DNA of 53,219 nucleotides from Nitrospirota bacterium (lineage in GTDB: Bacteria; Nitrospirota; 9FT-COMBO-42-15; HDB-SIOI813). Below, in pieces: positions 1 to 31,297 of the stretch. The stretch is taken from positions 1 through 53,219 of the forward strand of contig JADLDG010000051.1 of the NCBI GenBank assembly GCA_020846775.1. Reading direction: 5' to 3'. The position numbers and the translations under genes are program-made. The notes beneath the pieces were generated by a model, which was given only the letters and a program-made list of their open reading frames with translations, was not told where the DNA came from and ran no database searches. Positions within the stretch are counted from its first letter, which is position 1, and every line of letters starts with the position of its first letter.

Positions 1-448
1 AGGCAAACCTCTGGACAATGTAGGTAACAGCCTGGGTCTGTACAGGATGGGCAATAAATATCAGGGAGGCCGCAAGGGCTATAAACCACCTGGTCCTCGA
101 ATCCATTTTGAAGCGCTCCATGACAGGTGTCCTTAATGTCAGACCAGCAAGCAGCCAGACCAGGAGGCCGTTTATTATATGTATGACGATATTCACTACA
201 TGATACCCGAAGACGCTGAGACGGCCAAAATGATAGTTCAGTGCAAAGGAGAGCTCTCCTATATATCTTGTCCCCGAAAAATTATGGAAATTTGCAAGGC
301 TTCTGATCTTGCTGTTCTTTATGATATTGCCAATATCATCAAAGTGGAAGGGAGAGAAAAAGCTGTTGGAATAGATAAGGAGGGCAGTTGCTGACACAAG
401 TATCAGGGCCAGTGTAAAGCCGGACTTTTTATATACCTCTTTTTTCAT
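1..448 (-). CDS. TMTC-like GT-C glycosyltransferase (3' end outside window)
   Basis: About 149 N-terminal codons are present. The ATG at 448-446 overlaps the stop of the upstream gene (445-447) in an ATGA junction, which implies translational coupling. The translation starts MKKEVYKKSGFTLALILVSA, has an N-terminal membrane segment, then FHFDD, the Asp pair in the first periplasmic loop of GT-C enzymes, and later the HPVQTQAVTYI motif. It aligns closely with the neighbouring gene over its whole visible length, so it is a tandem paralogue. The TMTC (DUF1736) family are polyprenyl-phosphate-sugar-dependent membrane glycosyltransferases, with eukaryotic members O-mannosylating cadherins. The substrate here is unknown, and TPRs are expected beyond the window edge. 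Confidence 0.85.
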   Translation of the reverse strand, partial: MKKEVYKKSGFTLALILVSATALLIYSNSFFSPFHFDDIGNIIKNSKIRSLANFHNFSGTRYIGELSFALNYHFGRLSVFGYHVVNIVIHIINGLLVWLLAGLTLRTPVMERFKMDSRTRWFIALAASLIFIAHPVQTQAVTYIVQRFA

Positions 449-2328
449 CTCTGTCTTTCCTTTATTTCCTTTGCCTTGAAGGCCAAAACGAGGTTATTGC
501 GGGCTTCAGAAAAATCAGGGTTCAGTCTTAAGGCTGCCCTGAATTCCCCTATCGCCTCGTCTATCTTTCCCATATTTGCAAAGATAAAGCCAAGACTGTT
601 GTGGGCCTTGGCAAAGTCAGCATCGAGATTTAAGACGGTCTTGAATTCCTCTATCGCCTCATTAGAAAGGCCCTTTTTATAGTAAGCGACCCCAAGGTCG
701 TAATGGGCCTCTGTCAGCTTCGGATTAAGCCGCAGGGCATTCCTGTATTCTTCTATCGCTTCATCAGCCCTCCCCTGTCCTGAATAGACAGATCCGAGGA
801 GATGGTGTACCGGAGCACTTTCAGGCCTGAGTCTCAGAAAGGTCTTGAATTGTTCTATCGCCTCATTGTAGAGGCCTTTTTTCCTGTAGGCAACTGCGAG
901 GTCATATATGGCCTCTACAAGATCAGGCTTGAACATTAAGGCAGTCTTGTATTCGTTTATGGCCTCGTCTATTCGACCCTCCTTATAATAAGCAGCTCCG
1001 AGGTTGTCATACCCCCTTGCCTTTTTAGGGCTTTTACGCACCACATCTGTCCAGAGGGCAACTTCATTCCCCCAGACAAGGTTCCTTTTAAACGTAAGCA
1101 GGGAAAGTGGAATGACAACAACAGCTATCACAATGGAGGCTGCAAGCATCTGAGAAACCCTGATCCCTGACCTCTCCCGCCAGTATTCAATACCATACAG
1201 CAGCGCTGAACCAGATGACATAGCAAATCCCGCACCAGGCAGATAGAGTCTGTGCTCAAAGATCACATCCTTTATAGGTATGATACTTGATTCAACTGAA
1301 AGGGTTATAAAAAACCAGAGGATGCCAAAGGACGTCAACAGCAGATACACATTACCGTTCCTACGGGAATAGACAAAAAGATATACAGCGAGACACAGGA
1401 TAGCCAAAAGGAACAGAAAGGATAAGAAGACTGCAGGTGTAGAAAGGGAATGATAGACGGGGTAGTCATAATCAAGATTCTGATTGACAGGAAGAACCAG
1501 CAATCTGATATATGTAACTATCACCCGGAATTGTGTAAGTAAATAATCACCTCTTGAAATATTCAATGTGTTCTGAGCCGCCCCTTCCAGACTTCCCGCA
1601 ATGTTGCTGACAGGTATATGGAAATCCATAAGGGTCAGGGGAATGACGGCAAGGGTTAGAAGATATGGAACAAAAACGTACAGATGCCTCCTCCTGTCCT
1701 TAAAAAATGTGAATTCAAATAGAAGGATCATAAAGGGGAGGGTAAAGCTGATCTCCTTGGTCTTCATGGCAAGGATGGCAGAAGATATGGAAAGAAGATA
1801 GATGATAATCCTGAATCTCTTACCGGAAGCGAGTCTCCATTTCAGAAAAAGCACCAGTGATAAGAAATAAAACAGCGTCGCCAGGGAGGCAAACCTCTGG
1901 ATAATATATGTGACCGCCTGGGTCTGTACCGGATGAGTAATAAAGATCAGGGACGCAGCAAGTGCTATAAAACCGTTAAGCTGCTCCCTTCCGGATGCAC
2001 CTGCCATCATCGCCGGCGTCCTGAATATCAAAGTGACTAAACACCAGACAAGGAGGCCATTAATAATGTGGATGGAGACATTGACCAGGTGGTAGCCAAA
2101 GACGTTAAGTCCTCCGAAATAATAGTTCAGTGCAATAGATAGTTCACCCACATATCTGGTTCCTGAAAGATCAAGAAAATTGGAGAGATCTCTGATCCTG
2201 CCTCCTTCAAAGACAATATGAGGGATGTCGTCAAAGACGAAGGGGGATGAGAATGTGCCGGAGTTGACAAGAATTGCAATTATGGTGACAAGAGACATTA
2301 CTACAACAAAGGGAACCCCCTGCTGCAT
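445..2328 (-). CDS. TMTC-like GT-C glycosyltransferase with C-terminal TPRs
   Basis: The frame opens at a TTG at 2418, inside the upstream gene. ATG 2328 is preferred because it lies just past that gene's stop and aligns with the start of the neighbouring paralogue; ATG 2379 is an alternative. The product is about 627 residues. It has an N-terminal membrane helix, the FVFDD acidic motif, HPVQTQAVTYI in a loop, about ten more membrane segments, and an EHRLYLPG motif typical of TMTC proteins. Five or so 34-residue TPRs follow (for example AIYDLAVAYRKKGLYNEAIE). The family transfers sugars from lipid carriers to exported proteins; TPRs probably select or dock the substrate. This copy keeps the classical RLYLP motif, unlike the five copies at 17-31 kb, which have QENRGYL there. 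Confidence 0.85.
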   Translation of the reverse strand: MQQGVPFVVVMSLVTIIAILVNSGTFSSPFVFDDIPHIVFEGGRIRDLSNFLDLSGTRYVGELSIALNYYFGGLNVFGYHLVNVSIHIINGLLVWCLVTLIFRTPAMMAGASGREQLNGFIALAASLIFITHPVQTQAVTYIIQRFASLATLFYFLSLVLFLKWRLASGKRFRIIIYLLSISSAILAMKTKEISFTLPFMILLFEFTFFKDRRRHLYVFVPYLLTLAVIPLTLMDFHIPVSNIAGSLEGAAQNTLNISRGDYLLTQFRVIVTYIRLLVLPVNQNLDYDYPVYHSLSTPAVFLSFLFLLAILCLAVYLFVYSRRNGNVYLLLTSFGILWFFITLSVESSIIPIKDVIFEHRLYLPGAGFAMSSGSALLYGIEYWRERSGIRVSQMLAASIVIAVVVIPLSLLTFKRNLVWGNEVALWTDVVRKSPKKARGYDNLGAAYYKEGRIDEAINEYKTALMFKPDLVEAIYDLAVAYRKKGLYNEAIEQFKTFLRLRPESAPVHHLLGSVYSGQGRADEAIEEYRNALRLNPKLTEAHYDLGVAYYKKGLSNEAIEEFKTVLNLDADFAKAHNSLGFIFANMGKIDEAIGEFRAALRLNPDFSEARNNLVLAFKAKEIKERQR

Positions 2329-2350
2329 GTAAGAACGTGCCGGAAATTCC

Positions 2351-3148
2351 TTATGGAGATTTTGCACACCTGAAGCCATGATCAAAATCGCTGTGCCAGT
2401 TATGTCCCCTTGTCGCAAGGGTTGATCTTATAGCATATCTTGAGGCAGTTCTTGTATACCTGTAGAGGGGAGTCTCATAGGACCCGCCGCGCAGTACGCG
2501 ATAAGGCCCGGTATAATGGCCGGCTGAAACAGTATTTCCCGGATAAGGCGTATACCACTCAGACGTCCACTCTCTTACATTACCGGCCATGTCATATACA
2601 CCATACGGACTGACATCCCCCGGATAGCTGCCAACAGCCGCTGTCCACTTTCTCCCGGACTCTGCGGTGTTTGCCTTTCCAGTGTCATATTCATTCCCCC
2701 AGGGCCATAGCCTGCCGTCAGTACCACGGGCTGCCTTCTCCCACTCAACCTCTGTGGGAAGACGTTTCCCGGCCCACTTGCAGTAGGAATCGGCATCCAG
2801 CCAATCCACATCAACAACAGGATAGTTGTCCTCGCCCTTTTTAAATACCTCTCTCTCCACCCAGTGGCTTGGCCGATAGGGATCATTTACCTTGAGCACA
2901 AAGTCTAAAAACTGGGCATTAGTAACCTCATAGCGGTCCATGTAGAAATCATCTACATAAACCATATGCCTTGGAAGTTCATCCACTCCAATGGCCATAC
3001 CAAGTTTGCCGTCGGATTCACTGCTTCCCATCTCAAAAGATCCGGCAGGTATATAGACCATGTCAGCAGGCAGATCCTTCTTTACAATAAAATTCTGATG
3101 ACTGCAGCCGGCCAGCAGAGATACAATCGTTAGGATCACCAGGAACAT
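2351..3148 (-). CDS. SUMF1-fold (FGE-sulfatase domain) lipoprotein, copy 3
   Basis: The frame extends to 3169, but ATG 3148 has an ideal AAAGGAGGT Shine-Dalgarno and gives a clean lipoprotein signal (MFLVILTIVSLLAGC, lipobox Cys15). The rest is one formylglycine-generating-enzyme-type domain: MVYIPAGSFEMGSSESDG near the start, DRYEVTNAQFLDFV, CKWAGKRLPTEVEWEKAARG, WPWGNEYD, GVYDMAGNVREWTSEWY and a terminal HGFRCAKSP. The cysteine pair used by true FGEs after the RGGS motif is absent (RGGSYETPLYRYTR), so formylglycine formation is unlikely. A structural, sugar- or metal-binding role on the cell surface is possible. It is the third of three tandem paralogues downstream of the multiheme cytochrome. 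Confidence 0.88.
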   Translation of the reverse strand: MFLVILTIVSLLAGCSHQNFIVKKDLPADMVYIPAGSFEMGSSESDGKLGMAIGVDELPRHMVYVDDFYMDRYEVTNAQFLDFVLKVNDPYRPSHWVEREVFKKGEDNYPVVDVDWLDADSYCKWAGKRLPTEVEWEKAARGTDGRLWPWGNEYDTGKANTAESGRKWTAAVGSYPGDVSPYGVYDMAGNVREWTSEWYTPYPGNTVSAGHYTGPYRVLRGGSYETPLYRYTRTASRYAIRSTLATRGHNWHSDFDHGFRCAKSP

Positions 3149-3172
3149 CTTACCTCCTTTACTCAGCATTCA

Positions 3173-4009
3173 TTACTCAGCATCCAGGGCACATCGGAAT
3201 CCGTGGCCGGGATGATCCCACTGCGGGGCTACTGAATGTCTGTAGGCAGTTCTGGCAAAAGGCACAGAGGGGTTTTCAAATGAGCCGCCGCGCAGAACCT
3301 TATATTTTTCTCCAAATGCCTCACGCTTCAGGGTGCTCCCTGGATAGGGCTTATACCAGGAAGAGGTCCATTCCATCACATTTCCCCCCATATCATAAAC
3401 CCCGTAGGGGCTCACCCCCTGCGGATAACTTCCAACAGGTGTTGTCCAGCTTGTCAGGGCCTCTAATGTATTGGCTTTTAAATCCTCTGGAACGTTTGGT
3501 TCGTTGCCCCAGGGCCACTGGCGGCCGTCTGTACCCCTTGCGGCCTTTTCCCACTCTTCTTCAGTTGGAAGTCTTTTCCCAACCCAGCGGCAATAGTCAT
3601 CTGCATCATACCAGGATATAGCGTTCATTGGATGATTTATTTTTGGTACGGGATATATCTTAACCCACTCCTCAACTTTCCATATCCGCGGGGTCCTTCG
3701 TCCTGTTATATCAAGAAACTTCCTGAACTCCCCAACGGTAACTTCATACAGGTCTATGTAATAGCCCTTCAGATACACCCTGTGCTGCGGGATTTCATCA
3801 ACCCCGACTGCCAGTCCCAGGAGGCCGTCTTTCTCATTGCTCCCCATCAGAAACCATCCTTCAGGGATGTATGCCATCCCATCAGGCGGAGCAGGAGGTT
3901 TGACCTCTCTCATCATTGTACTGCATCCGGTTAATAAAAGACCATAGACAAAACAACACAAAAGAGAAAAACCTGCTGTCGAAACACTCTGGTAAAATTT
4001 ATTCCGCAT
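3173..4009 (-). CDS. SUMF1-fold (FGE-sulfatase domain) lipoprotein, copy 2
   Basis: This 278-residue protein begins with a lipoprotein signal whose lipobox is LLTGC (Cys29). A single SUMF1 domain follows with MAYIPEGWFLMGSNEKDG, DLYEVTVGEFRKFLD, CRWVGKRLPTEEEWEKAARG, WPWGNEP, GVYDMGGNVMEWTSSWY and HGFRCALDAE. The post-RGGS segment is RGGSFENPSVPFARTAYR, without the two catalytic cysteines of FGE. Its 5' end overlaps the 3' end of copy 1 by 11 bp, so the two are co-translated. All three copies share a GVDE(I/L)P segment after the MGS motif. Function unknown beyond the fold; an outer-membrane or periplasmic anchored partner of the cytochrome is one option. Confidence 0.88.
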   Translation of the reverse strand: MRNKFYQSVSTAGFSLLCCFVYGLLLTGCSTMMREVKPPAPPDGMAYIPEGWFLMGSNEKDGLLGLAVGVDEIPQHRVYLKGYYIDLYEVTVGEFRKFLDITGRRTPRIWKVEEWVKIYPVPKINHPMNAISWYDADDYCRWVGKRLPTEEEWEKAARGTDGRQWPWGNEPNVPEDLKANTLEALTSWTTPVGSYPQGVSPYGVYDMGGNVMEWTSSWYKPYPGSTLKREAFGEKYKVLRGGSFENPSVPFARTAYRHSVAPQWDHPGHGFRCALDAE

Positions 4010-4823
4010 CCTTCACACATCTGAAACCGAGTCCGCGATGTTTATATTCCGGCTCATAGGTATTGGAGCGATAGGCCGACCTGCTGTATGGAAGGGCTGG
4101 CATAACCCATGAGCCCCCCCTGCCAATCCTGTATATCTTACCATAGGATTCCCGCGTAAGTGAACTCCCAGGATACGGAAGGAACCATGATGACGTCCAC
4201 TCCCCGACATTTCCACACATATCATAGACCCCATAAGGACTGACATCTTCCGGCAGACTCCCCGGTACAAGAATTCTGCCCGGTCCTGTATATTTTGAAT
4301 TACAATACTCTCCTTTAAAATCATTCCCCCAGGGCCACTGACGATGGTCTGTACCCCGTGCAGCCTTCTCCCACTGCTCCTCAGTCGGGAGTCTCTTTCC
4401 GGCCCAGCGGCAGTAGGCTTCAGCATCATACCAACTGACGTATGTAACCGGGATATCGTCCTGGCCTTCCGGTGGAGAACCATCCTTCCACGAATATAAG
4501 CCTTCTTTAATATCCACCGGTGGGGGATGGCCGGTTGCCCTTACGAATAATTTATATTCACCATTAGTCACTTCATATCTGTCTATGAAATAGCTATCCA
4601 GAGACACCTTGTGCAGTGGAATCTCATCTACCCCTACAGATGTCCCTACTTGTCCATCATTTTCTGAGCTGCCCATGAGGAACTCTCCGGAAGGGATCAG
4701 AACCATCCCGTCTTCTAATGGTGGATAGTGATTGCCTGCTGATGATACTTCTTCTGCCTTCGCTGTTGATGCAATTACCATCACCAGAGCCATTGCAACT
4801 ACCTGAGACAATAAAAAAAGCAC
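3999..4823 (-). CDS. SUMF1-fold (FGE-sulfatase domain) exported protein, copy 1
   Basis: The open frame extends to 4940, inside the cytochrome gene. GTG 4823 is chosen because it lies 18 bp past the cytochrome stop, follows a GGGGGAG Shine-Dalgarno, and makes a textbook signal peptide ending ASTAKA before EEVSS. The SUMF1 domain shows MVLIPSGEFLMGSSENDG, DRYEVTNGEYKLFV, CRWAGKRLPTEEQWEKAARG, WPWGNDF, GVYDMCGNVGEWTSSWF and GFRCVKDAE. It has RGGSWVMPALPYSRSAYR at the catalytic region, so it lacks the FGE cysteine pair. Unlike copies 2 and 3 it has no lipobox and should be soluble in the periplasm or secreted. Confidence 0.88.
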   Translation of the reverse strand: MLFLLSQVVAMALVMVIASTAKAEEVSSAGNHYPPLEDGMVLIPSGEFLMGSSENDGQVGTSVGVDEIPLHKVSLDSYFIDRYEVTNGEYKLFVRATGHPPPVDIKEGLYSWKDGSPPEGQDDIPVTYVSWYDAEAYCRWAGKRLPTEEQWEKAARGTDHRQWPWGNDFKGEYCNSKYTGPGRILVPGSLPEDVSPYGVYDMCGNVGEWTSSWFLPYPGSSLTRESYGKIYRIGRGGSWVMPALPYSRSAYRSNTYEPEYKHRGLGFRCVKDAE

Positions 4824-4840
4824 GTACTCCCCCGGCCTCT

Positions 4841-7549
4841 CTAAAACTCCTCCCCTGCGGTCCCTGCACACCATAAGGGACCTATGAATGAGCTTGGATT
4901 GGGACGGTAGTGGCAGGTAGACATGGTCGTTCCATGACATTTCAGATCACAACGAAAGAGAGTAAAACTCCCCTGAACATCCATATACCACCTTGGTTTA
5001 ATCGCCGTGGCGCCTTCTACGAGTCCGGGGGCGAAGTTAATAAGATGCGTATCTACCACCCCGTCAATAATACCATCTTCGTCATCCGGAGGAAGACACC
5101 CGGGAGGGTCTGACATGGAGTCTCCGCCGCCGCAGTTCGGGTAGATTCTACCGGTTCCATTCCCATAGATGGTGTTCGGCGCCTCAATATTGCTGTGGAC
5201 GTTGTTGTGGCATTCATGACAGTAGGCGCCGCCAAGCAACAAGTGGTATACATGAAGATTGTAATCCCAGGCAGACGAAATCAATCCAGGATTCCCGAAG
5301 AAGTTGGTCCATGATGGATCATATGGATTCGCCCCGGACTGATTCGGATCAAATGCGCGCCGGTCATGGCACTGGAAACAGAGGCTGAAGTTATCATAAT
5401 TTGAACTGCTCTTGCCATCCTCACCATAGTTTCTTCCCGGATTCCGGATGTCAGTATTGTACATGTTCCTCAGTATGCGTGTATAGATGGAACCATGTGG
5501 CCCCTGAGGTTTGGTTGGATCTATACTGGTATCTTCACCTATCTTGGACGGACGATCGGTTATCCTCCTGTATGAAGCACCATTCGGAAGGCCTGTTACA
5601 GGGCCTTTGACATCACCAATCCCTGACACGTTATTGTTATGGCAATCCGTACATTGGATGGTAATGTTCCTTAGCGCCCCGGCAGGGTCTGCATCACAGC
5701 TCCCATTGGTACCTGCCGGATTAACACTTGACTCACTGATATCAAAGGCAATGGCAAGCTGCTTACAGAGCTGACGTGTGCCATTTCTTCCAGGAGCAGC
5801 CACAGGGTGAAAGGCCGGATTATAAAACTGCTGCGTATGATCCAGACCTATATCCGCACTGTTAGGGTCGAACTCTTTCCGCTTGTTGCTGTAACCCCTG
5901 AGGCTCAAATTAGCATTAGTGGGACCGGCATCTCTTGGATCTGAACGATAGTTGGTATCCTCGGGGTATCTGCTGCCTAAAAACAGATTAGTATAACTAT
6001 TCCCGTGACACCTTAAACAGACTTCATATACATATGGTTCACGGCTGTTCCCGGCTATCTTTGCCCCTACGACACTACCATTAATATCAATCCCCTTCAT
6101 ACCCTTTAACCTGTTGGTCTTCGCAACCTGATGCGGGTTGTGGCAATCTACACATTCGATATGTGTAGTATCCTGTATGGTGGTACCAGGGGTATATTCA
6201 TTGAAAACCGGAGGGGAGGAACTCCAGAGTTCCACTCCTTCCTGAGGTCTGGCTACAAATACAGGTTCATGGCCCGGGTCCATGGTAATGTTCATTGCGC
6301 TGCCGGTGCCGCCGCGGCCTAAGTTTACATCTTTATAAAATTCGCTCCTGATATCAGGCGGCGTTACACCAGGCACAGGTGTGATTCCCATCTCCGTTGC
6401 CGGTCTGTGGCAAAGATAGCAGGTATTCTCTATGGCCAGATTATTGTTGAAATCCACTCCTTCGCGCAAGAGCCTCTTTGCACCCTGAGCCGTGTGTGGA
6501 TCGTGGCAGGCCCGGCAGGCATATTTACCCACTGTATGATCCGGGGCCCCGTCAAAGTTATACGGATTAGACTGTGTCGGATTTGCCGGCGGTACAAATG
6601 TAGCCACATCGTGTGAACTCCCCGACCAGCCCGGCTTATCGTGACAGTAAACACAGATGATCTTTCCCCTGTCAGGACTCTCAGGCTCGTTGAAGAAGTT
6701 GGCACGCAGGAACTTGGGAAAAGTTGCAGCATGAGGATTATGACAGGAGGTACACTGCACTGAATCGTACCTGCCCGAAAGATTGCCGGGATATCTCCTC
6801 ATCGGTGAAATAGGGGTGGTATCTCCCACCTTGGCAGGCGGAACCAACGGCGCACCCGGGTCTACAAGTTCTTCATCCCTGAGGGCAAGGACCGTATCGT
6901 ATACAAAAGACACAGGATGGTCATTCTGCAGGTTAGTGCCAATAACCCTTGTATCCCCTGTTGAAACCCCTGATCCCACAGGCATTGTCCCGGCGCCTCC
7001 TGCCGATGCCTGACCTGTCGGATAAATCATGTCGAACGAAGGGAAAAATATCCCTGAACCAGGCGGATTGACGACTGTCCCCATGGCAATTGTCCCGTCA
7101 TGACAGGAAAGACATAATCTCGAATAACCAGTAGGGGCATTAGGCTTTGGGGGGCTTACTTCATATGCCTCAAAACTGGTACTCCAGATCTGGTCGTAAA
7201 GGATATAGCGTGCTGCAGACAGATTTCTATTCCATAATGGCGCTGAAAGTGTCGTTGTGGCTTCTGCATCTGACCCGTGAGGAGTGTGACAGAAAATACA
7301 TACTTCAGTTGTCTGTTCGGTGTATACATTGCGCTCTATACCTGAGGGAGGAACAGAGGAAAGATTATGTTTCGTATTTCTGATGTCTTCAAGCAGTGAT
7401 GGCACTAATGGCACCGGTGGAGGCGGGGGAGCCGGAGGTGACTGGGAATGGCTGCTCTCTCCAGGCACAAGGACAATAGAAAGACATGCTAAGGAGATGA
7501 CGACTACAAGTAAAATTAAGTATCTTTTAGAAGCGGCTATTTTATCCAT
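4841..7549 (-). CDS. Multiheme c-type cytochrome (11 CXXCH plus one CX3CH)
   Basis: A 902-residue exported protein. Residues 8-29 form a signal peptide or membrane anchor, residues 38-50 are a proline-rich tether, and the first haem site is C84-IFCH. I count eleven CXXCH sites (CIFCH, CLSCH, CTSCH, CVYCH, CRACH, CYLCH, CVDCH, CLRCH, CTDCH, CFQCH, CHECH) and one CDLKCH, an atypical CX3CH, close to the C-terminus. Several carry the CXXCHNPH or CHDPH context of the doubled-CXXCH cytochrome families. The likely role is electron transfer in the periplasm or across the envelope. It sits 27 bp after the preceding small exported protein and 18 bp before the first SUMF1 gene, in the same long operon. 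The electron partner is not evident here. Confidence 0.92.
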   Translation of the reverse strand: MDKIAASKRYLILLVVVISLACLSIVLVPGESSHSQSPPAPPPPPVPLVPSLLEDIRNTKHNLSSVPPSGIERNVYTEQTTEVCIFCHTPHGSDAEATTTLSAPLWNRNLSAARYILYDQIWSTSFEAYEVSPPKPNAPTGYSRLCLSCHDGTIAMGTVVNPPGSGIFFPSFDMIYPTGQASAGGAGTMPVGSGVSTGDTRVIGTNLQNDHPVSFVYDTVLALRDEELVDPGAPLVPPAKVGDTTPISPMRRYPGNLSGRYDSVQCTSCHNPHAATFPKFLRANFFNEPESPDRGKIICVYCHDKPGWSGSSHDVATFVPPANPTQSNPYNFDGAPDHTVGKYACRACHDPHTAQGAKRLLREGVDFNNNLAIENTCYLCHRPATEMGITPVPGVTPPDIRSEFYKDVNLGRGGTGSAMNITMDPGHEPVFVARPQEGVELWSSSPPVFNEYTPGTTIQDTTHIECVDCHNPHQVAKTNRLKGMKGIDINGSVVGAKIAGNSREPYVYEVCLRCHGNSYTNLFLGSRYPEDTNYRSDPRDAGPTNANLSLRGYSNKRKEFDPNSADIGLDHTQQFYNPAFHPVAAPGRNGTRQLCKQLAIAFDISESSVNPAGTNGSCDADPAGALRNITIQCTDCHNNNVSGIGDVKGPVTGLPNGASYRRITDRPSKIGEDTSIDPTKPQGPHGSIYTRILRNMYNTDIRNPGRNYGEDGKSSSNYDNFSLCFQCHDRRAFDPNQSGANPYDPSWTNFFGNPGLISSAWDYNLHVYHLLLGGAYCHECHNNVHSNIEAPNTIYGNGTGRIYPNCGGGDSMSDPPGCLPPDDEDGIIDGVVDTHLINFAPGLVEGATAIKPRWYMDVQGSFTLFRCDLKCHGTTMSTCHYRPNPSSFIGPLWCAGTAGEEF

Positions 7550-7575: not shown

Positions 7576-8322
7576 CTAAAACATGTCAACTCTGCGGAAA
7601 GAAAAAAAACGACGAGATTTAAAGAATATTATTGGCAAGAATAAGCAAGCCACACTCAGTACGTCTATTCCACCACTTTCGGGGCCATCCCTGTGTGATC
7701 TTATAGTTCCGCACCCTAAGCCGTTTCCGTTCCTGACAGAGGCCTTGGATAACTCTAATGACATAGATCTCGTCCCCTCATCTGTAGATAAAAATGAGTA
7801 ACTTGATTCCATGGAAATATCTGTCTGCTGCGGCTGCCCATCACTACCCGCAGAGCCGTTGTCTTTCAGTATAAGCCGCTCACCGGACTTTAACATGTCC
7901 TGAGGAATATCCCAGGTCAACACTACCTTCTTACCCTTTGGGACTGAATCAATGGAAATCCTCCACATTGTATTACCATCCGCAAATCCCCTGATGTCCT
8001 TCCAGAGTTGTACAGACTGTTTTCCTCCGGCAGCCTTTCCGCTCAGGTAGGCCCTCAGGATTAAAGGGTGGTCAGAATCAGGATGAGATGTCAGTGCAGG
8101 GGTATCCCATAGATAATCAAGATCATCGGTAGCCCCTTGTTCCTTGCCGATTACAAGCTTGTTGTAAATCTTTTCTCCATTATCAGAGACTGTAGAGACC
8201 TCTATAGGGAACTTCCATGCAGAGGCATGCGGAGGACACAGGAGAAAATTAGAAATAATTATTATGAACACAAAAATAGCGATAATACTGATTTGTTTTT
8301 CGGGTGCGTCTTTTATACTCAT
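7576..8322 (-). CDS. Exported protein of unknown function with possible C-terminal sorting tail
   Basis: A 248-residue protein with a signal peptide (hydrophobic stretch about residues 12-30, cleavage near SAW). The mature part is a predicted beta-rich domain containing NKLVIGKEQGATDDLDYLWD and LWKDIRGF. Both are also recognisable in the next protein upstream (IAGVREGATDGFNSALD and LWRDIRAF), so the two share a domain. The C-terminus has GNGLGCGTI, a hydrophobic stretch (IDVLSVACLFLPIIFF) and basic residues KSRRFFSFRR. That is the layout of Cys-containing C-terminal sorting signals such as MYXO-CTERM or JDVT-CTERM, though I cannot assign it to a named family. No enzymatic motif is visible. 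Confidence 0.75.
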   Translation of the reverse strand: MSIKDAPEKQISIIAIFVFIIIISNFLLCPPHASAWKFPIEVSTVSDNGEKIYNKLVIGKEQGATDDLDYLWDTPALTSHPDSDHPLILRAYLSGKAAGGKQSVQLWKDIRGFADGNTMWRISIDSVPKGKKVVLTWDIPQDMLKSGERLILKDNGSAGSDGQPQQTDISMESSYSFLSTDEGTRSMSLELSKASVRNGNGLGCGTIRSHRDGPESGGIDVLSVACLFLPIIFFKSRRFFSFRRVDMF

Positions 8323-10439: not shown

Positions 10440-10528
10440 CGCTCTTCCTCTCATAATCACTTTAGTCAAAACTTTCAAAACACCTGCAATGCTGAACACT
10501 GCGCTATTTCGCAGGCTTCAGCCTCATT

Positions 10529-22882: not shown

Positions 22883-22934
22883 CAGCGATTTCTCATTAAT
22901 GGCATTGTAACACTTTGTTGAAGGTATTTTGTTT

Positions 22935-24962
22935 CTACTGCCTGAGCCTGTTAAGGCGGGCAAGACGCTGCTGAGCCATCTCAGCGAATTTCCTTATTAC
23001 TCCTCTGTCCACACCAAGCATGGCTGACCAGTTGTCAGGCCCTGCAGAGCTTAGCCTGATAACTTCACCATATTGTTCCGCTGCTTCATTGTTTCTGCCA
23101 AGCTTCTCAAGCGTATCTGCAAGTTCAAGCCTGGCCTGAATATAGGATGGATTAAGGCTGAGCGCCTTGCGAAACTCAACTTCAGACTCCTTCAGCCGCC
23201 CGCGGCCTGCCATTACAACTGCAAGGTTGTAATGGATATTTGGCTGGTCCTGCCACTCCTCAGCTGCCTTCTTCAAATAGAGTTCAGCATGTTCAAGGTC
23301 ACCCTTCTGACCGTAAAGGATCGCAAGGTCATTTGAGATAACGGCCTCACCGGGAGCAATCCTGAGGGCCTTTTCATATTCAGCTATCGCCCTATCCGTC
23401 TTCCCCAGCATCTGGTATGTCCTGCCAAGATTAACAATCGCATAATAACTGTTTGGATCTATGGAGAGTCCTTTCTCGGCAGTCTCTGCAGAAAGAAAAA
23501 GGTCGCCGCGATCTCTGTAGGCATTTGCCAGTCCTGCATATGCGAGGCTTGACCGTGGTGTCTTTTCCACCGTATCCTTCCATAATGCAACACTATCCCC
23601 CCATACCATGTTCCGGTGCACTGTAATTGCCCCGTAAGTTCCAAGTAAGACAAGCAGTACGGCCATCATTGCCGAGCGTGATATTTTCTTACCCAACTCC
23701 GCTATGGCCATACCCATCAGGACAACAAAACTCACGATGGCCAGATATCCCCGGTTCTCCTGAAAGACTGCGTTAAGAGGGATGATAGTCGTTGGTAAAA
23801 GGACGATAAAAAACCAGAACATGAAGAACGAGGCTGCGCGCAGGGAATGTCTCCCCTTCCAAATAAAATAGAATGCCAGAAATATATAGAGTATGAGAAG
23901 GAAGCCTGAAAGAAGTACAGCCCCGAGAACACTGCTATATACCCCGGTATCATGGATTATGCTAAGGCCACGAGGTAATAAAAACATCTGCCAGTGTTTT
24001 ACGAGTACAGGAATCTCCGTGAGAAGCTGTGTTATCATGTCCCGCTGGAATGGGTCTATCACCCTGCCAAGTGAAAAGAAACGTATCATAAGATAGGGGA
24101 CCACTACGATCAGCACAAAAGGCAGATATGGGATGTAGGTTCGCCAATTTAAAACATAAGCCAAGGTTGAGGAGTGACGTCCGGGGGCCTGCTGAAACCC
24201 GTATAAATCATACAACCATAGCATCACCGGTAATGTAACCGCCACCTCCTTGCTCAGCATGCCTGCAACAAAGGCAAGCAGGGAGGCGATGTAGAAGTTA
24301 GAAGTAAAAGATGATAACTTTTCACTTCTATATCTCACCCAGAAATAAAAGGCCAGTAAATAGAAAAAACCGCTCATCACACTGGATCTTGCAGTAGTGT
24401 AATTAACTGCCTCAGAGTTAAATGGATGGACAAGGAAGATAAGCCCGGCAGCTATTGCTGCAAGGGACCACACACTATCATTGCTGACACCCTCAGGATG
24501 TGAAGTAATCCGGGTATCAGATTGCTTTGACCTGCCTCGCCGGTCTTTTGATGGAGGACTAACTGGCGCCTGCTCTACCCTGCCTGACATAGCCTTTACC
24601 ATCAGGAATATCAAAAACGCCGACCCCGCATGAAATGCCAGATTTACTATGTGATAACCTATTGGGCTCAGCCCTCCGAGGGCATAATTAACAGCATAAC
24701 TCATTATTACAAGCGGCCGGTAGTGACCGGCAACTTTAGGGTCATTGGCGCCCAGGGAGGGGTCAAAGAAGTAACGCGGGATATTACCTGGCTCCCGAAT
24801 ATTAACATTCCTGACAACAACCACATCATCATCAAACTCGAAGGGATTATTCAGTGAATTCAGATAAATAATACCTCCTATAAAGAGGAATATGACAAGG
24901 ACCAGACCCGGGCGGGACAATACATTGAGAAAGACAGAGGTACTCTTAATCATAGCTTTCAT
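22935..24962 (-). CDS. TMTC-like GT-C glycosyltransferase with C-terminal TPRs, first gene of the long operon
   Basis: A 675-residue paralogue with FEFDDD, GHYRPLVIMS, HPFNSEAVNYTTARSSVMSG and VFQENRGYL, a hydrophilic insert like that of the 18943-21009 protein, and TPRs from about residue 460 (for example AYAGLANAYRDRGDLFLSAE). It is the first gene after a good sigma-70 promoter at 24990-25019, with an untranslated leader of only about 20 nt. An ATG three codons further in is an alternative start. Confidence 0.87.
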   Translation of the reverse strand: MKAMIKSTSVFLNVLSRPGLVLVIFLFIGGIIYLNSLNNPFEFDDDVVVVRNVNIREPGNIPRYFFDPSLGANDPKVAGHYRPLVIMSYAVNYALGGLSPIGYHIVNLAFHAGSAFLIFLMVKAMSGRVEQAPVSPPSKDRRGRSKQSDTRITSHPEGVSNDSVWSLAAIAAGLIFLVHPFNSEAVNYTTARSSVMSGFFYLLAFYFWVRYRSEKLSSFTSNFYIASLLAFVAGMLSKEVAVTLPVMLWLYDLYGFQQAPGRHSSTLAYVLNWRTYIPYLPFVLIVVVPYLMIRFFSLGRVIDPFQRDMITQLLTEIPVLVKHWQMFLLPRGLSIIHDTGVYSSVLGAVLLSGFLLILYIFLAFYFIWKGRHSLRAASFFMFWFFIVLLPTTIIPLNAVFQENRGYLAIVSFVVLMGMAIAELGKKISRSAMMAVLLVLLGTYGAITVHRNMVWGDSVALWKDTVEKTPRSSLAYAGLANAYRDRGDLFLSAETAEKGLSIDPNSYYAIVNLGRTYQMLGKTDRAIAEYEKALRIAPGEAVISNDLAILYGQKGDLEHAELYLKKAAEEWQDQPNIHYNLAVVMAGRGRLKESEVEFRKALSLNPSYIQARLELADTLEKLGRNNEAAEQYGEVIRLSSAGPDNWSAMLGVDRGVIRKFAEMAQQRLARLNRLRQ

Positions 24963-24989: not shown

Positions 24990-25019
24990 ATATTAGAGAA
25001 AAGCCATTATGAATGTCAA
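24990..25019 (-). promoter_or_regulatory. Sigma-70 promoter of the long minus-strand operon
   Basis: On the minus strand TTGACA (25019-25014) and TAATAT (24995-24990) are separated by 18 bp. The -35 is a perfect consensus match, and transcription would start about 20 nt before the ATG at 24962. Confidence 0.75.
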
Positions 25020-25070
25020 CTTAAAGCCCGGGTCAGGCATAAGCTTTAGCGATAAAATAAAAATTCATGC

Positions 25071-25076
25071 TATAAT
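25071..25076 (+). promoter_or_regulatory. Possible -10 element of the divergent plus-strand gene
   Basis: A perfect TATAAT lies 9 bp before the GTG start at 25086. No convincing -35 is present at 16-18 bp spacing. If used, the transcript would be almost leaderless. Confidence 0.4.
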
Positions 25077-25085
25077 GTCGGCGTC

Positions 25086-26279
25086 GTGAATACAACAACC
25101 AGAGATAGAGCGATAAGACAGGCAGAAAGCGGGAAGAGACTGGGTTTATTTTTTTCAGCGGCCCTCGTTTTTTTATTTTTTCTTGCGATTTCTTATCAAC
25201 TCTGGCTGCATGATCTTTTGCTCTGGGGTCCTCACCACTTCATCCCCGACGGGCATGGGGAGTTTGCCGAAAAATGGCACCAGTTCCTGTCAAACCCCGG
25301 CGCCGGGACATGGGCTGATCTGACTAAATGGTCATCCGGATACTACCAGGCAGGCAATTGGCTCACTGCCTTTCTGGCCGGACTTGTCATGTTCATCACA
25401 GGCTCCACGCTGCATGCATTTTTCCTGGTCAGCGGAATTTCCAGCGCCGTTACCTCCTGGTTTCTATATGTCTATCTGAGGAGATTTCTACGCATAAAAG
25501 GCAGCCATTGCCTGATGATCCTGATCCTTTTCTGGAGCCACATCGTGGTACTGACCTCTTTGCTCCGACCCATGACAGATGCCCTTCTTCTCGCATTTGT
25601 CACCGCCTCGTTATATCTCATTACCGACTACTTCACTAATCGGCGCCCGGTCTCTTATGGCATCATAATCATCATTGTCCTCTCGCTGGGAATCATGGTC
25701 AAATTTTCATTTGCTCCAATCCTGGCAGTTCCCCTGACTGCCTGGATATTTTTGAAGTTTTCGGCTAAAAAGCCTCAACAACCTTCAAAACAAATCCTGC
25801 TATGGTCGGCTGCCTGTTTGCTCATTCCCTTGTTCTTCTGGTTTATTTATGTCCGCTCTCTGGACCTCTTTCCCACCATTGACATGCAGCGACAGGTACT
25901 GAAGCAATTTCGATACTCTTATAATCCTTTACGGTTCATCTATTCTTTCATCATTGCCGGGCAGGGCTACCTGTTTTTTCTTAAAAACAGCTTACGGAAT
26001 AAATTGACTTCGCCGGCATATATGATACCGCTGCTCTGGAGCCTTGGATATCTCGTCCTGATTATTTCAGGCGGCGTGCCATTCTGGAACCGGCATTTCC
26101 TTGTATTTCTCCCGGTGCTCTTCATAATCTGTGGAGAATCCATAAGCCGGTATATTCAATCGCGCCGGTATTGGTGGATTCTCCCATCTGTTTTTATCCT
26201 TATAAATTTCATCATCGTTTTTCTATTGTTGAGCGATAACAAAGGCTCACCACTCCTGCAGCCTTTTCTTTATGGATGA
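25086..26279 (+). CDS. Polytopic membrane protein, possible GT-C-type glycosyltransferase
   Basis: A 397-residue protein with a GTG start and roughly ten hydrophobic segments. Between the first two is a long external loop with HHFIPDGHGEFAEKWHQFL and KWSSGYYQAGNW. This resembles the acidic first loop of GT-C integral membrane glycosyltransferases, but I do not recognise a named family. It is transcribed away from the TMTC-like operon and is the only plus-strand gene in the first 51 kb. It ends convergently with the MFS/spermidine synthase fusion, 28 bp apart. Its position between two sets of TMTC-like genes suggests a role in supplying or transferring the sugar. Confidence 0.7.
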   Translation: MNTTTRDRAIRQAESGKRLGLFFSAALVFLFFLAISYQLWLHDLLLWGPHHFIPDGHGEFAEKWHQFLSNPGAGTWADLTKWSSGYYQAGNWLTAFLAGLVMFITGSTLHAFFLVSGISSAVTSWFLYVYLRRFLRIKGSHCLMILILFWSHIVVLTSLLRPMTDALLLAFVTASLYLITDYFTNRRPVSYGIIIIIVLSLGIMVKFSFAPILAVPLTAWIFLKFSAKKPQQPSKQILLWSAACLLIPLFFWFIYVRSLDLFPTIDMQRQVLKQFRYSYNPLRFIYSFIIAGQGYLFFLKNSLRNKLTSPAYMIPLLWSLGYLVLIISGGVPFWNRHFLVFLPVLFIICGESISRYIQSRRYWWILPSVFILINFIIVFLLLSDNKGSPLLQPFLYG

Positions 26280-26307
26280 TCAGTCAGGATGGCCAGGCAG
26301 TTCGGGT

Positions 26308-29268
26308 TTATCCCGATAAAAATTGCTCTTTGAATCTCAAGGCAGGGTAATAATCCGGTTTGACTTTCAAGGCACGGTTTATTAAATCCAGTGCCGTTTT
26401 TTTATCTTTTTCAGTCATCATCTCAAGCTCAGCCAAATTCAAGAGACAGAGATAATTATCCGGGTCAAGGTCAACACAGCCCTGAATAAGGTCTTTCGCC
26501 TTTAATAATTCTTTTTTGCTGACGAGGTCATCAGCAAGATATATTCTGGGTAAAGTCTGTCTGCTGTTTATATTCAATGACTTCTCAAGATATGTCAATG
26601 CCTCTCCTTTCCTTCCATCTCTCATTAATCCCATTGCATAAGAATTGAGGGTGGTTGGATTATCAGGTCTGTATGAAAGAGACTTCTCCAGGTAAGTTAA
26701 CCCTTGTTTATAATAAATACCTTTGAGCATGCTCGAACCGATCTTGTAATTGACATCTGCAAAATAATAGCTTGCCATTGGATAAGGATAAATGAGATCG
26801 GCAGCGGTTTTCAGTTCAGCGAAAAAGTCTTTGTCTCTGTTAAGATGTTTCAGATGTGACCTTATCAGGTGGGTTCTGGCGCTGAAGTATTTTGCCAGGA
26901 CCGGCTCAAACTCCCGGGAACTTTCGGAAGAAGTAAACTTAAGCATTTTGGGTAAATTAAATTCTCTTTTCTCAAGAAAATATGAGACATTTTCCTTTTC
27001 TGTTCTCCTTACCAGAGTACGCGGCGTTAAAAACTCAATGATCGGGTAGTTGTCTGTGTTGATTGGGAGTCCCTTGCCAATATCGGGTATTTTATTTTCG
27101 TCGAACATATAGTTTGCCAGAAAATCGTATATATTATCAATCCCTATCTCTTTCAGGTCCTGAGCAATGCCGGGCTCGGATATCCGCCTCTTTAAATTTT
27201 CGACATCTATAACCAGGGGCTCTTCAGACCCTATCAGTATCATGTCGTTAAATGCAAACCATGCAGATACATGCGGAAAAACAGCATGAAATGTTTTTAT
27301 AATTATCCTTGCCTCTTCAACCCCTACCTGGTACAGGGGAAGATACTGACACATTATGCCGCCGGGCTTTAATGCCCTTCTGGCATTTTGAAAGTGTTCC
27401 AGATCATACAAGTACCCGGATCCCATGAAGAACGGATCAAGGGGATCTTCCGTGATTACATCGTATTTTTTTCGGGTCGTCTTCAGGTAGTTTCGCCCGT
27501 CATCAAATATCAGGTGTGCATTTGGATTGTCCAGGACATCACGGTTGTATTTCTTGAACAGTCTGGCGCCACCTACAACTTCTGGAGAAATCTCGATAGC
27601 GTCAGACTGATGTCCATGACGTGCCAGGGCGCTGAATGTCATGCCTGCCCCAAGCCCGATAACAACCGATTCTCTGGGGTCAGGATGCAGAAGCATGGGG
27701 AGGTGTCCGAGAAGGTACTGGTTTGCCACGTCTGTAATTGAAGTGCTGGCCATAGGCTTTCCATTAATGCTGATAGTCGTCGGATCTATGTAGCCAATGA
27801 CCGAGACATTTACATTGACACCCTCCTTATAATACATTAAGGGCAAATCATTTTTCGCTGCCATCAAAGATTTTACATCATCATAAAGACGGACATAAGG
27901 TGCGCTGTCCATCAGCTTTGCATCCCATGGTCGAAAAAGAATGAGTGAAGTGACTGCGGTAATACCGCAGAACACAACAACTGCAGTCTTCTGAATCCTG
28001 CCTGGCAGCATCAATGACAGCATGACCGCTATTGCCAAACCAGCCAGCCCCATGACTGTGATTGTAGTTTGAGTCCCAAGCAGGGGTAAAAAGATGAACC
28101 CCCCTATAAACGATCCGAAGACTCCGCCTACGGTATTGAGTGCATAGACTGATCCGACGTCTCCACCTGATTTTGAGGCCTTTTGGGCATAAACAGCTGT
28201 GACCAGGGGGAAGGCCGCTCCAAACATAAGGGTTGGAATGAAAAGGACAATAACATTTATGATAATCTTAATTATGAAGAATCCTGAAAAACTTTTCAGC
28301 CCCATAGATAGATAAGTGAATAGAACAGGAAGCTGATCATAATACCTGACAGCCAGCAGAGAGTAGAGGGAGGCTGCGAGTTCTACCAGGGTAAGGGCCA
28401 GTATTGCTGACCTGATACGGCTTAATAATCTTGTTGCAATCTCACTCCCGAGACCCAGGCCTATAATAAAAACAGAAAGCATCAGTCCAAAAGTATAAAC
28501 CGTGTTCCCTGTCACCTGTATCAGGAGCCTGATCCATGCAACCTGATATACCATCGAGATTAATCCGGCTATACAAAACAGTGACAGAACATATTTCTGC
28601 GACGGGGTATGCCGATAGCCCGTTATCACAGGGAGTTCGGCAGGTGCTGCGTTATTACTCCTGAAAATTGCGAAGGCGGATATCCCGATTCCAATGTTAA
28701 TTATACCGGCAAGGTACAGGCTTTCATTTACCCCGGCCAAAGGTATAAGCAGCATGGTGCCAAGTATTGTTCCCAACGCAGCCCCAAGTGTATTAATGGC
28801 ATAAAGGCGTCCTGCATCGAAGGCAACCTTTTCGTCACTACTTGTCACAAGTTTTACCAGTACAGGCAGGGTTGCCCCCATAAGTGTTGTAGGTAAAAGA
28901 AGCCCGATATATGAGAGTATAAACCGGACTAATGTGAGGCTGAAGAGTCCGGTATCTATGAAAGGATAAATTAAAGAATAGATACCCTCTATGCCAAGAA
29001 ATACAAAGGGACTGCAAATACCGAAGACGCCAATCAATATCTCAAGGATTGCATAGGTGAAGAGAGGGTTACGTCCACGATCCATTGCCCGGCCAATTAA
29101 CCAGGCCCCCAGGGCTAATCCTGTAAAAAATACAGTGAGAATTGTGGTAACCGCATAGACAGTACTCCCAAAGATGAGACCCAGCTTCCGGTTCCACATG
29201 ATCTCGTATATCAGAGCAGAAGACCCTGATAAGAAGAACATCAAATATATAATTGTCCTGTACCACAT
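26308..29268 (-). CDS. MFS-like / spermidine synthase-like / TPR triple-fusion protein
   Basis: A 986-residue protein. Residues 1 to about 430 are an MFS-like membrane part typical of fused spermidine synthases (LSGSSALIYEIMWNRKLGLI at the start). Residues about 475-740 are a SAM-binding fold of spermidine synthase type (SVVIGLGAGMTFSALARHG, LIFDDGRNYL, YDVITEDPLDPF, RRALKPGGIMCQYLPLYQ). Residues about 840-986 are TPRs (for example TLNSYAMGLMRDGRKGEALT). Fused proteins of this kind are common, but aminopropyl transfer is proven for few, so the reaction is open. It follows a TMTC-like gene by 86 bp and carries TPRs like the TMTC enzymes, which hints at the same client or complex. Confidence 0.88.
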   Translation of the reverse strand: MWYRTIIYLMFFLSGSSALIYEIMWNRKLGLIFGSTVYAVTTILTVFFTGLALGAWLIGRAMDRGRNPLFTYAILEILIGVFGICSPFVFLGIEGIYSLIYPFIDTGLFSLTLVRFILSYIGLLLPTTLMGATLPVLVKLVTSSDEKVAFDAGRLYAINTLGAALGTILGTMLLIPLAGVNESLYLAGIINIGIGISAFAIFRSNNAAPAELPVITGYRHTPSQKYVLSLFCIAGLISMVYQVAWIRLLIQVTGNTVYTFGLMLSVFIIGLGLGSEIATRLLSRIRSAILALTLVELAASLYSLLAVRYYDQLPVLFTYLSMGLKSFSGFFIIKIIINVIVLFIPTLMFGAAFPLVTAVYAQKASKSGGDVGSVYALNTVGGVFGSFIGGFIFLPLLGTQTTITVMGLAGLAIAVMLSLMLPGRIQKTAVVVFCGITAVTSLILFRPWDAKLMDSAPYVRLYDDVKSLMAAKNDLPLMYYKEGVNVNVSVIGYIDPTTISINGKPMASTSITDVANQYLLGHLPMLLHPDPRESVVIGLGAGMTFSALARHGHQSDAIEISPEVVGGARLFKKYNRDVLDNPNAHLIFDDGRNYLKTTRKKYDVITEDPLDPFFMGSGYLYDLEHFQNARRALKPGGIMCQYLPLYQVGVEEARIIIKTFHAVFPHVSAWFAFNDMILIGSEEPLVIDVENLKRRISEPGIAQDLKEIGIDNIYDFLANYMFDENKIPDIGKGLPINTDNYPIIEFLTPRTLVRRTEKENVSYFLEKREFNLPKMLKFTSSESSREFEPVLAKYFSARTHLIRSHLKHLNRDKDFFAELKTAADLIYPYPMASYYFADVNYKIGSSMLKGIYYKQGLTYLEKSLSYRPDNPTTLNSYAMGLMRDGRKGEALTYLEKSLNINSRQTLPRIYLADDLVSKKELLKAKDLIQGCVDLDPDNYLCLLNLAELEMMTEKDKKTALDLINRALKVKPDYYPALRFKEQFLSG

Positions 29269-29353
29269 AACTTAATATCTGATAAAACCCATCATGAATT
29301 TAATTTTTGAAGATAGAGTATAGAAATAAAGTGTCCTCATGTCAATATTGATT

Positions 29354-31297
29354 CTAATGCGCAGGGCTATTGCTGCGGGAAAGCCTTTGGCGTGCCTTTT
29401 CTGCAGTCTCCTCCTGCTCCTTTCTTTCCTTCTCCGTCATAGATGCAATTGCTTCACTCTCCCCGGAAGCCAGCCTGATAATTTCCTGATACTGCACACC
29501 CGCTTCCCCCAACCTGCCAAGTTTTTCAAGCGTCATACCGAGTTCATATCTGGCCTGAAAATAAGAAGGACTGAGGCTGATGGCCTTGTTAAACTGACCC
29601 TCTGCATCCTGTAATCTGCCGCGTTCCACGGCGATAACACCGAGATTATAATAGACATGGGGCCGGTCTTTCCATACCTCTGCCACTTTCCTCCAATACA
29701 ACTCCGAACGATTCAGATCACCCTTCTGCAGGTATAAAGCTGCCAGGTCATTCCAGACAATGACCTGGGTAGAAGAGATCCTCAGTGCATTCTCATATTC
29801 CTCTATTGCATTCTCAGGTTGTCCAAGTGCCTGATAAATGCGGCCCAGATTAAGCCGGAGAGAAAAATTATTCGGAGCTGCATTTATTCCCTTCTTTGCC
29901 TCTTCACGTGCAAGAAATAAATCTCCACGGGTTGCATAAGCCGCTGCCAGTCCTGCATAGGCCAGGCCGGAGCCGGGTGTTTTATCCAGGACATCCTTCC
30001 AGAATACTACACTGTCCCCCCATATCGTATTGCGGTAAACCGTAACAACACTATATGCCCCGAGTAAAAACACTAAAACAACCACCATGACCACCCGGGC
30101 TATCCTCGTGTCCAGTTCCGATAAACTCACCCCTGCCAAAACCGTAAAACTCACCATAGCCAGATACCCGCGATTCTCCTGAAAAACAGCATTCAGGGGA
30201 ATGATTGTAGTTGGCAAAAGCACGATAATAAACCAGATCATAAAGAATGATACTATACGCCGCTTAGCGCTGCCCCGGATCATAAGGTAAATGGCGGAAA
30301 CAAAATAAAGTAATATCAAGATACCTGAAAACAGAACAGTCATTGTGATACTGTGTTTTATCTCTACATCATGGATAAGCGTCAATCCGGAGGGGAAAAA
30401 GAACATCTGCCAGTGTCTTACCAGCACCGGCAGCTCGGTAAATAGCTGCGTCATCAAATCACGCTGAAATGGGTCAAGCACCCTCCCGAAAGAGAATAAC
30501 CGGATTACCAGGTACGGGACCATCACAATAAGCACAAAAGGAAGATATGGTACATAAGTACGCCAGTGAACTAAAGTGCGGAGTCGAGAGCGCCCGGGGT
30601 CCGGTATAATTACAGATGAATCCGAAGGACTTGGCCCGCGCCCACGGAAGTAAAGGTCATACAGCCATAATACAAGAGGCAGCGTAATAACCACCTCCTT
30701 ACACAGCATCCCTGCTACAAAGGCAAGGAGAGAGAAGATGTAGAAGTTAGAGGTCTTCGCACCCCTGTACTTCACCCAGCAGTAAAAGGCAAGGAGGTAG
30801 AAGAACCCGCTCATTAGGCTGGACCTGGCACTGACGTAATTAATGGCCTCTGAGTTAAAAGGATGGATAAGATAAATAAGACCTGCCGAAAAGGGGGCAA
30901 GAAAGGCGGTGGTGATTCCTGTTAAGTTGGCTGGTTGCGGGATAATGGCCTGAAGTATTAAAAATACCAGAAATGACGATCCGACATGAAAGAGCAGGTT
31001 TACCAGGTGATAGCCGGCAGGGTTTAAACCTCCAAGTGCATAATTGACCACATAGCTCGCAGCCACAAGAGGACGGTAGTGGCCGGCGTTGGCAGGGTCA
31101 TTCGTACTTAGCCGGGGCTCAATAAAAAACTGCAGGATATTCCCGGTATCCCGGATATGTATGTTTTCTACAATATCTTCAAAGTCATCCAGACGGAAAG
31201 GATTGTCTATTGCGTTGAAATAGACAAAACTCCCCATTAGAAGGAAGATAAGAAAAACAATATATGAACGTGTCAGGAGTACTGGCAAGATAATCAA
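29354..31297 (-). CDS. TMTC-like GT-C glycosyltransferase with C-terminal TPRs
   Basis: A 647-residue paralogue starting at a TTG (31297), since no ATG lies upstream of the first membrane segment. It shows FRLDDF, GHYRPLVAAS, HPFNSEAINYVSARSSLMSG and VFQENRGYL, then TPRs from about residue 450 (for example AYAGLAAAYATRGDLFLARE). Its closest relative in the window appears to be the 22935-24962 protein. It lies in a separate operon from the other six, 61 bp after the TPR/beta-barrel protein gene. Confidence 0.86.
   Translation of the reverse strand: MIILPVLLTRSYIVFLIFLLMGSFVYFNAIDNPFRLDDFEDIVENIHIRDTGNILQFFIEPRLSTNDPANAGHYRPLVAASYVVNYALGGLNPAGYHLVNLLFHVGSSFLVFLILQAIIPQPANLTGITTAFLAPFSAGLIYLIHPFNSEAINYVSARSSLMSGFFYLLAFYCWVKYRGAKTSNFYIFSLLAFVAGMLCKEVVITLPLVLWLYDLYFRGRGPSPSDSSVIIPDPGRSRLRTLVHWRTYVPYLPFVLIVMVPYLVIRLFSFGRVLDPFQRDLMTQLFTELPVLVRHWQMFFFPSGLTLIHDVEIKHSITMTVLFSGILILLYFVSAIYLMIRGSAKRRIVSFFMIWFIIVLLPTTIIPLNAVFQENRGYLAMVSFTVLAGVSLSELDTRIARVVMVVVLVFLLGAYSVVTVYRNTIWGDSVVFWKDVLDKTPGSGLAYAGLAAAYATRGDLFLAREEAKKGINAAPNNFSLRLNLGRIYQALGQPENAIEEYENALRISSTQVIVWNDLAALYLQKGDLNRSELYWRKVAEVWKDRPHVYYNLGVIAVERGRLQDAEGQFNKAISLSPSYFQARYELGMTLEKLGRLGEAGVQYQEIIRLASGESEAIASMTEKERKEQEETAEKARQRLSRSNSPAH

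Follow-up and report, generated by a model that had tools for sequence, protein, structure and literature searches.

The eukaryotic TMTC1-4 proteins (CAZy GT105) are O-mannosyltransferases of cadherin domains, and one proposal is that their C-terminal TPR tail recruits Ig-like domains (PMC7801869, PMC11292533); how the tail chooses its client in the human enzymes is stated as an open question (PMC11292533). The PMT-family enzymes (GT39) have a MIR domain in the place of such a tail. An insulating role has been proposed for the sugars on filaments of OmcE, the multihaem filament subunit of Geobacter. These filaments reportedly carry extensive glycosylation (PMC9473688), and no paper in the literature searched, to which the main OmcE paper did not belong, names an enzyme that glycosylates them. 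In this study, we analysed a locus of a groundwater bacterium in which seven TMTC-like enzymes are encoded beside giant surface proteins and a nanowire-related haem protein, a gene content suggesting that the array sugar-coats electron-conducting surface proteins.

The window, by which we mean the whole stretch of 53,219 nucleotides that was analysed, begins with the first base of contig C51, which belongs to a 2.73-Mb metagenome-derived genome of Nitrospirota (G000), and its features are collected in Table 1. The seven GT-C/TPR genes listed by an initial annotation were all found, on the minus strand, and six of them do lie in one tightly spaced run (2-24962, gaps of -100 to +61 bp). The exported proteins that it named were recovered as well: a giant Ser/Thr-rich mosaic protein (20.1% Ser+Thr over 1858 aa, against about 10-16% for most other window proteins, with an fn3 match), an Ig/FN3 protein, here a 706-aa ORF with He_PIG and fn3 matches, three SUMF1-fold proteins (FGE-sulfatase matches of E about 1e-55 each) and a cytochrome with 12 haem motifs. 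All 12 motifs, 11 CXXCH and one CX3CH, are kept in six orthologues of the cytochrome, so the count was right. The same annotation missed the OmcE-type domain of the cytochrome and a Slam-like exporter, did not notice that the SUMF1-fold proteins have lost their active-site cysteines, and described too short a cluster: the conserved region runs past 31297 to about 42.7 kb, and the Slam-like outer-membrane exporter is among the additions. The "single strong promoter" that it placed at 24990-25019 is well positioned but is not distinctive, and we rejected it as such, since the site scores 10/12, 46 promoter-like sites reach that score in the stretch (34.5 +/- 7 in shuffles) and a higher-scoring one lies at 29345-29317.

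Table 1. Features of the cluster, with positions in the window.
Feature	Position	Strand	Remarks
TMTC-like GT-C gene, cut by contig start	2..448	-	149 aa seen; 59% identity to next one
TMTC-like GT-C/TPR gene, distinct orthologous group	445..2418	-	orthologues in G001, G007
Exported SUMF1-fold (FGE-sulfatase) protein 1	2351..3169	-	without catalytic CX4C pair
Exported SUMF1-fold protein 2	3173..4009	-	without catalytic CX4C pair
Exported SUMF1-fold protein 3	3999..4940	-	without catalytic CX4C pair; true start probably internal
Exported 12-haem-motif cytochrome	4841..7549	-	residues 54-285 homologous to OmcE (7tfs_A)
248-aa secreted protein	7576..8322	-	resembles N-terminal part of 706-aa protein
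706-aa secreted protein	8379..10499	-	He_PIG (Ig) and fn3 domains
1858-aa secreted mosaic protein	10529..16105	-	fn3; 20.1% Ser+Thr
Membrane-anchored TPR protein	16167..16976	-	conserved, between TMTC array and giant protein
TMTC-like GT-C/TPR, tail class A	17002..18915	-	
TMTC-like GT-C/TPR, tail class B	18943..21009	-	
TMTC-like GT-C/TPR, tail class C	21035..22963	-	true start probably internal ATG
TMTC-like GT-C/TPR, tail class D	22935..24962	-	AlphaFold2 model pLDDT 90, pTM 0.89
397-aa PMT_2-family membrane protein, divergent, possible further GT-C	25086..26279	+	
Spermine-synthase-like membrane protein, TPR C-terminus	26308..29268	-	within TMTC run
Seventh TMTC-like GT-C/TPR	29354..31297	-	tail near class D (53%)
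TPR and outer-membrane barrel protein	31358..34516	-	C-terminus matches SlipAM (Slam) PF04575
438-aa secreted protein	34651..35967	-	conserved neighbour of TPR-barrel exporter
329-aa exported protein	36385..37374	-	conserved in cluster
MMPL-family transporter	37441..40107	-	conserved in cluster
DUF1302 protein	40120..41868	-	conserved in G007
LolA-like outer-membrane lipoprotein-sorting protein	41873..42679	-	conserved in G007

Pfam recognizes TPR repeats alone in the TMTC-like proteins, whose N-terminal 450 residues match no Pfam family, so that annotation relying on Pfam would show TPR proteins alone. No window protein matches PF08409 (TMTC_DUF1736), for which the best E value was 0.011 in 1 of 57 homologues and a search of the window's own genome gave at most a chance-level match; the Pfam PMT family has no match among the same 57 homologues (best E 0.017, in one), and a search of PDB sequences with the GT-C profile returned none. 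AlphaFold2 modelled the GT-C part of the class D enzyme with a pTM of 0.91. A Foldseek search of the PDB with this domain alone (the full-length model drew TPR structures instead) gave about 20 best matches that are nearly all GT-C-type enzymes, including ArnT (5f15, E 4.9e-4), Pmt4 (9i5k), AglB, STT3 and Pmt1-Pmt2. As modelled, the catalytic domain has the GT-C/PMT fold, with ArnT and Pmt4 as the nearest solved structures, and the roughly eleven membrane helices read from the model would place the TPR tail in the periplasm.

In motifs and domain layout the enzymes are TMTC-like. Among the 57 homologues, the acidic motif of the first periplasmic loop (D44 in 57, D45 in 53), the KExxxT motif of loop three (K238 in 57, E239 and T243 in 55 each) and an ExRxY motif of loop five (E402, R404 and Y406 in 56 each) correspond to the human motifs M1 (DD), M4 (KExxxT) and M7; in M7 the E-Y spacing is that of the TMTC motif ERxxY and the Arg has moved by one position. 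DD, KExxxT and the C-terminal TPR tail are thus all present. SHKSYRP (M2), RxD (M3) and PxxP (M6) are not kept whole: the M2 Arg, the M3 Arg and the first M6 Pro are general, the full YRP of M2 is found in a minority of homologues, including the five upstream window copies, and the M3 Asp and second M6 Pro are mostly missing. Because these three motifs are only partly kept, we call the proteins TMTC-like and do not assign them to GT105. They resemble the eukaryotic enzymes in having an N-terminal GT-C domain and in occurring as several paralogues with differing tails; unlike them, the window genes are clustered, have ExRxY for ERxxY and show no significant DUF1736 match. From the PMTs, with which they share the fold, they differ in the TPR tail, the paralogue array and the absence of a Pfam PMT match.

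The whole genome encodes eight TMTC-like genes, and the one outside the window (G000:C87:2398-4293) lies among dTDP-sugar and GT2 genes; it forms an orthologous group of its own, whose members in G003, G005 and G007 also stand beside dTDP-sugar genes. Since TMTC-like genes occur beside such glycan genes, some members may use other acceptors, and this eighth one perhaps does. ArnT, the top fold match, is a lipid A modifying enzyme. This match, the sugar-gene neighbours that the C87 gene has here and in relatives, and the many genomes in which TMTC-like genes are scattered away from cytochromes would all fit enzymes that modify lipids, LPS or exopolysaccharide and share a neighbourhood with our secreted proteins through its richness in surface genes. 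We regard this as unlikely, because an enzyme acting on a lipid would not be expected to have long TPR tails conserved by class and the array stays with the same secreted proteins despite rearrangement and partial duplication.

Among the paralogues, the tails vary more than the catalytic domain does. The five upstream window paralogues are 52-60% identical in the GT-C part and mostly 29-34% identical in the TPR part, with two TPR pairs at 48 and 53%. When four window enzymes were compared with four of the sister genome G001, the tails paired one-to-one at 61, 63, 57 and 45%, off-diagonal identities were mostly near 32% and the mean over all pairings was 40%; the GT-C domains showed 57-63% on the diagonal and 52-58% off it (best pairing 60%, mean 56%). 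By these identities, the TPR tails form cross-species classes atop a nearly uniform catalytic domain, to whose uniformity gene conversion could contribute. Tail classes conserved between species are what client selection by the tail predicts, so the earlier proposal that each tail selects a client gains indirect support (45-63% within classes, about 32% between paralogues). The array could instead have arisen by tandem duplication with no division of labour, its tails diverging fast under weak constraint; the TMTC-like tree does contain recent lineage-specific duplicates (22935 with 29354, and two in G007) besides old orthologous groups, and gene number differs among relatives. Weak constraint would have let orthologous tails diverge too, and yet three of the four G000-G001 pairs hold 57-63%, matching the identity of the catalytic domains, where paralogous tails stand at about 32%. 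We therefore find an undivided array rather improbable. Extreme expansions occur elsewhere: the Nitrospirota genome G055 (L030), of 2.9 Mb, has 82 TMTC-like matches and Geobacter sp. G043 (L022) has 47, some of the matches being gene pieces.

The core of the cluster, consisting of the TMTC array, the TPR protein, three beta-sandwich proteins, the 12-haem cytochrome and the SUMF1-fold proteins, recurs in four family relatives (G001, G002, G003 and G007), which as members of one family are non-independent samples. In whole or in part, their gene order is LolA, DUF1302, MMPL, 329-aa, 438-aa, TPR-barrel, TMTC array, TPR membrane protein, giant, 706-aa, 248-aa and cytochrome, followed by one to three SUMF1-fold genes and then more TMTC-like genes; the orthologues of 445..2418 in G001 and G007 hold this last position. 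The order is rearranged in G003, where the 329-aa and MMPL genes adjoin a SUMF1-fold gene, and the parts are still linked; G002 and G003 carry a second set of cluster pieces on other contigs. The PMT_2-family gene has no counterpart that we saw in the relatives' clusters. In the initial annotation, the operon was held to encode glycosyltransferases together with their own beta-sandwich clients. A linkage that survives rearrangement favors this. Outside the family it is not strict: in G010, G019 and G131, the contigs that encode the cytochrome and giant protein have no recorded TMTC-like gene. The linkage of TMTC-like genes to surface genes and cytochromes is real and recurrent, not obligate. 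The further suggestion of one enzyme per module type fails on the counts and was rejected, as the secreted modules are constant and the adjacent TMTC-like genes number about 3 to 7 among relatives.

The giant protein has orthologues in G001, G002, G003 (two) and G007 at about 46-62% identity. The 248-aa protein and the proteins orthologous to it share a C-terminus in which a Gly/Ser linker is followed by GxGCGT, a hydrophobic stretch and Arg residues; it looks like an undescribed sorting signal, for which NCBIfam gave no match. The CX4C cysteine pair is catalytic in true formylglycine-generating enzymes. This pair is missing from the three window SUMF1-fold proteins and the orthologues inspected, which makes formylglycine production unlikely, and we rejected an active role of that kind. 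The TPR-barrel gene adjoins TMTC-like genes in most relatives' clusters; its product resembles the Slam translocons in combining an N-terminal TPR part with a C-terminal barrel and differs from them in a much longer TPR part. The SlipAM match of its C-terminus is weak (23.1 bits, E 6e-5) and above the cut-off of 22, so a Slam-type outer-membrane exporter is plausible. A protein similar to the spermine-synthase-like, TPR-tailed one (26308-29268) is encoded near OmcE and TMTC-like genes in G124 (L179 8507-10000).

The N-terminal domain of the cytochrome is, as judged by its match to OmcE (E 3.3e-17), homologous to the Geobacter filament subunit; the same residues match a second multihaem cytochrome, 9yuq. 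The likeness to OmcE is one of sequence over residues 54-285. The window protein differs in being a fusion of 902 aa with 12 motifs and in its linkage to giant beta-sandwich proteins. Nanowires of the OmcE type are filaments in which a His ligand comes from the adjoining subunit, and filament formation by the window protein is putative. Other Nitrospirota families have operons that combine a related 11-haem cytochrome with two OmcE-like genes, NHL-repeat proteins and exported proteins, SurA-like or other; such an operon in G131 also includes a giant protein related to that of the window. TMTC-like genes enter OmcE loci elsewhere. G170 has two such genes, one overlapping the end of an OmcE-like gene (whose match to OmcE has E 3.7e-29) and the other overlapping the end of an 11-haem gene by four bases. 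In G030 DPM-like GT2, TMTC-like and OmcE-like genes adjoin, and in Geobacter sp. G043 two TMTC-like and two GT2 genes come after an OmcE orthologue (E 8.4e-53), all on one strand. Similar loci, with TMTC-like genes inside or beside them, occur in G044, G048 and G124. Several genomes picked for such haem-TMTC matches were left out of the enrichment argument, and the haem proteins near TMTC-like genes at 9 of the first 79 loci, a count without a control, were kept out of evidence.

Enrichment was assessed in Geobacteraceae, the family of G043, with 20 OmcE-centred regions (the seed left out) and 17 displaced controls, and with p values that ignore shared ancestry. A DPM-like GT2 gene was present in 11 of the 20 omcE regions and none of the controls (p = 0.0002); glycosyltransferase genes overall gave 11/20 against 0-1/17, and a GT2, a second GT2 and a GT4 gene occur together in the same 11 regions. 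TMTC-like genes alone were found in 4/20 regions against 0/17 (p = 0.07), and TMTC-like or other membrane-GT/TPR proteins in 7/20 against 0/17 (p = 0.0075). The loci (L186-L202, L170) begin with genes that read as ResB-like and CcsA-like membrane proteins and with 9-haem and 8-haem genes, continue with a lipoprotein-like gene, OmcE, another lipoprotein-like gene and a protein of about 770 aa, and end with an optional membrane-GT/TPR gene, two GT2 and a GT4. To our knowledge, no glycosylation module of that kind has been described at omcE. A second family of membrane proteins, of roughly 550-800 aa, recurs in OmcE loci (L171, L174, L175, L181, L179 and L187); it matches no Pfam family except TPR, and some members combine an N-terminal motif resembling D-x-D-x-[FW]W with weak TPR at the C-terminus. 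In a set of 148 Nitrospirota, OmcE-domain matches occur in 51 genomes and TMTC-like genes in 71. Outside the window's family, about 36 genomes have both, and in at least 6 of these the two lie within 15 kb of each other; this is not significant against some 4 expected, a crude upper estimate made by hand from the counts, and we rejected a phylum-wide link on this ground.

The fold of the enzymes, most of their motifs, the linkage, the tail classes and the homology of the cytochrome to OmcE are shown here, and we see an even chance that the cluster encodes a surface assembly together with its decorating enzymes, an array that would O-glycosylate exported surface proteins and cytochromes. The TMTC-like proteins would be inner-membrane GT-C transferases with their active site and TPR tail in the periplasm. 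Their sugar would come from a polyprenyl-phosphate carrier; the genome has a DPM-synthase-like gene outside the window (C90), whose product is 74% identical to an orthologue encoded beside the TMTC array of G003. The sugar would be placed on Ser/Thr of proteins in periplasmic transit, most likely the beta-sandwich proteins and OmcE-type cytochrome of the same cluster, with nearly interchangeable catalytic domains and a TPR tail that picks the client or site. The modified proteins could then reach the surface, plausibly via the Slam-like exporter. In this scheme we infer the donor and the sugar, the acceptor, the enzyme activity, the membrane topology and the route of export.

A narrower account would make the cytochrome (or OmcE-type filaments) the main client, with a glycan coat that insulates or protects them and the beta-sandwich proteins as a passive scaffold. 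It draws on the OmcE domain of the cytochrome, on the OmcE loci of G170, G030 and G043, where TMTC-like genes occur with no beta-sandwich homologue in the regions examined, and on the reported glycosylation of OmcE (PMC9473688). We nevertheless think it improbable, since in the window's family (f1) the array adjoins the giant beta-sandwich gene and not the cytochrome, and in the partial second copy of G003 (L128) a giant gene adjoins a TMTC-like gene on one contig. Unfolded proteins are reported to be modified by PMTs in eukaryotes (PMC12811338, PMC7759382), and the array might by analogy serve periplasmic quality control as a general tag for unfolded secreted proteins; class-conserved tails and a fixed set of secreted genes point to specific clients, making this very improbable. 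Within the preferred reading of a protein O-glycosylation array, we advance only tentatively, as a somewhat doubtful extension, that bacterial TMTC-like enzymes are the O-glycosyltransferases of OmcE-type nanowires and their partner surface proteins and that, in the array of this family, dedicated tails on interchangeable catalytic domains give each enzyme a client or site of its own.

Geobacteraceae offer a clear experimental handle on the system. If TMTC-like enzymes glycosylate OmcE, nanowire glycosylation would become genetically testable in the Geobacter relatives that have both genes, and a bacterial array that pairs one catalytic domain with several tails would serve as a natural experiment on client choice by the TPR tail. 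Beyond the cluster, the window contains a 225-aa ORF (46882-47559) that by eye looks like a MoaD-MoaE fusion, with moaC-like and moaA-like genes nearby (49858-50352 and 50576-51571).
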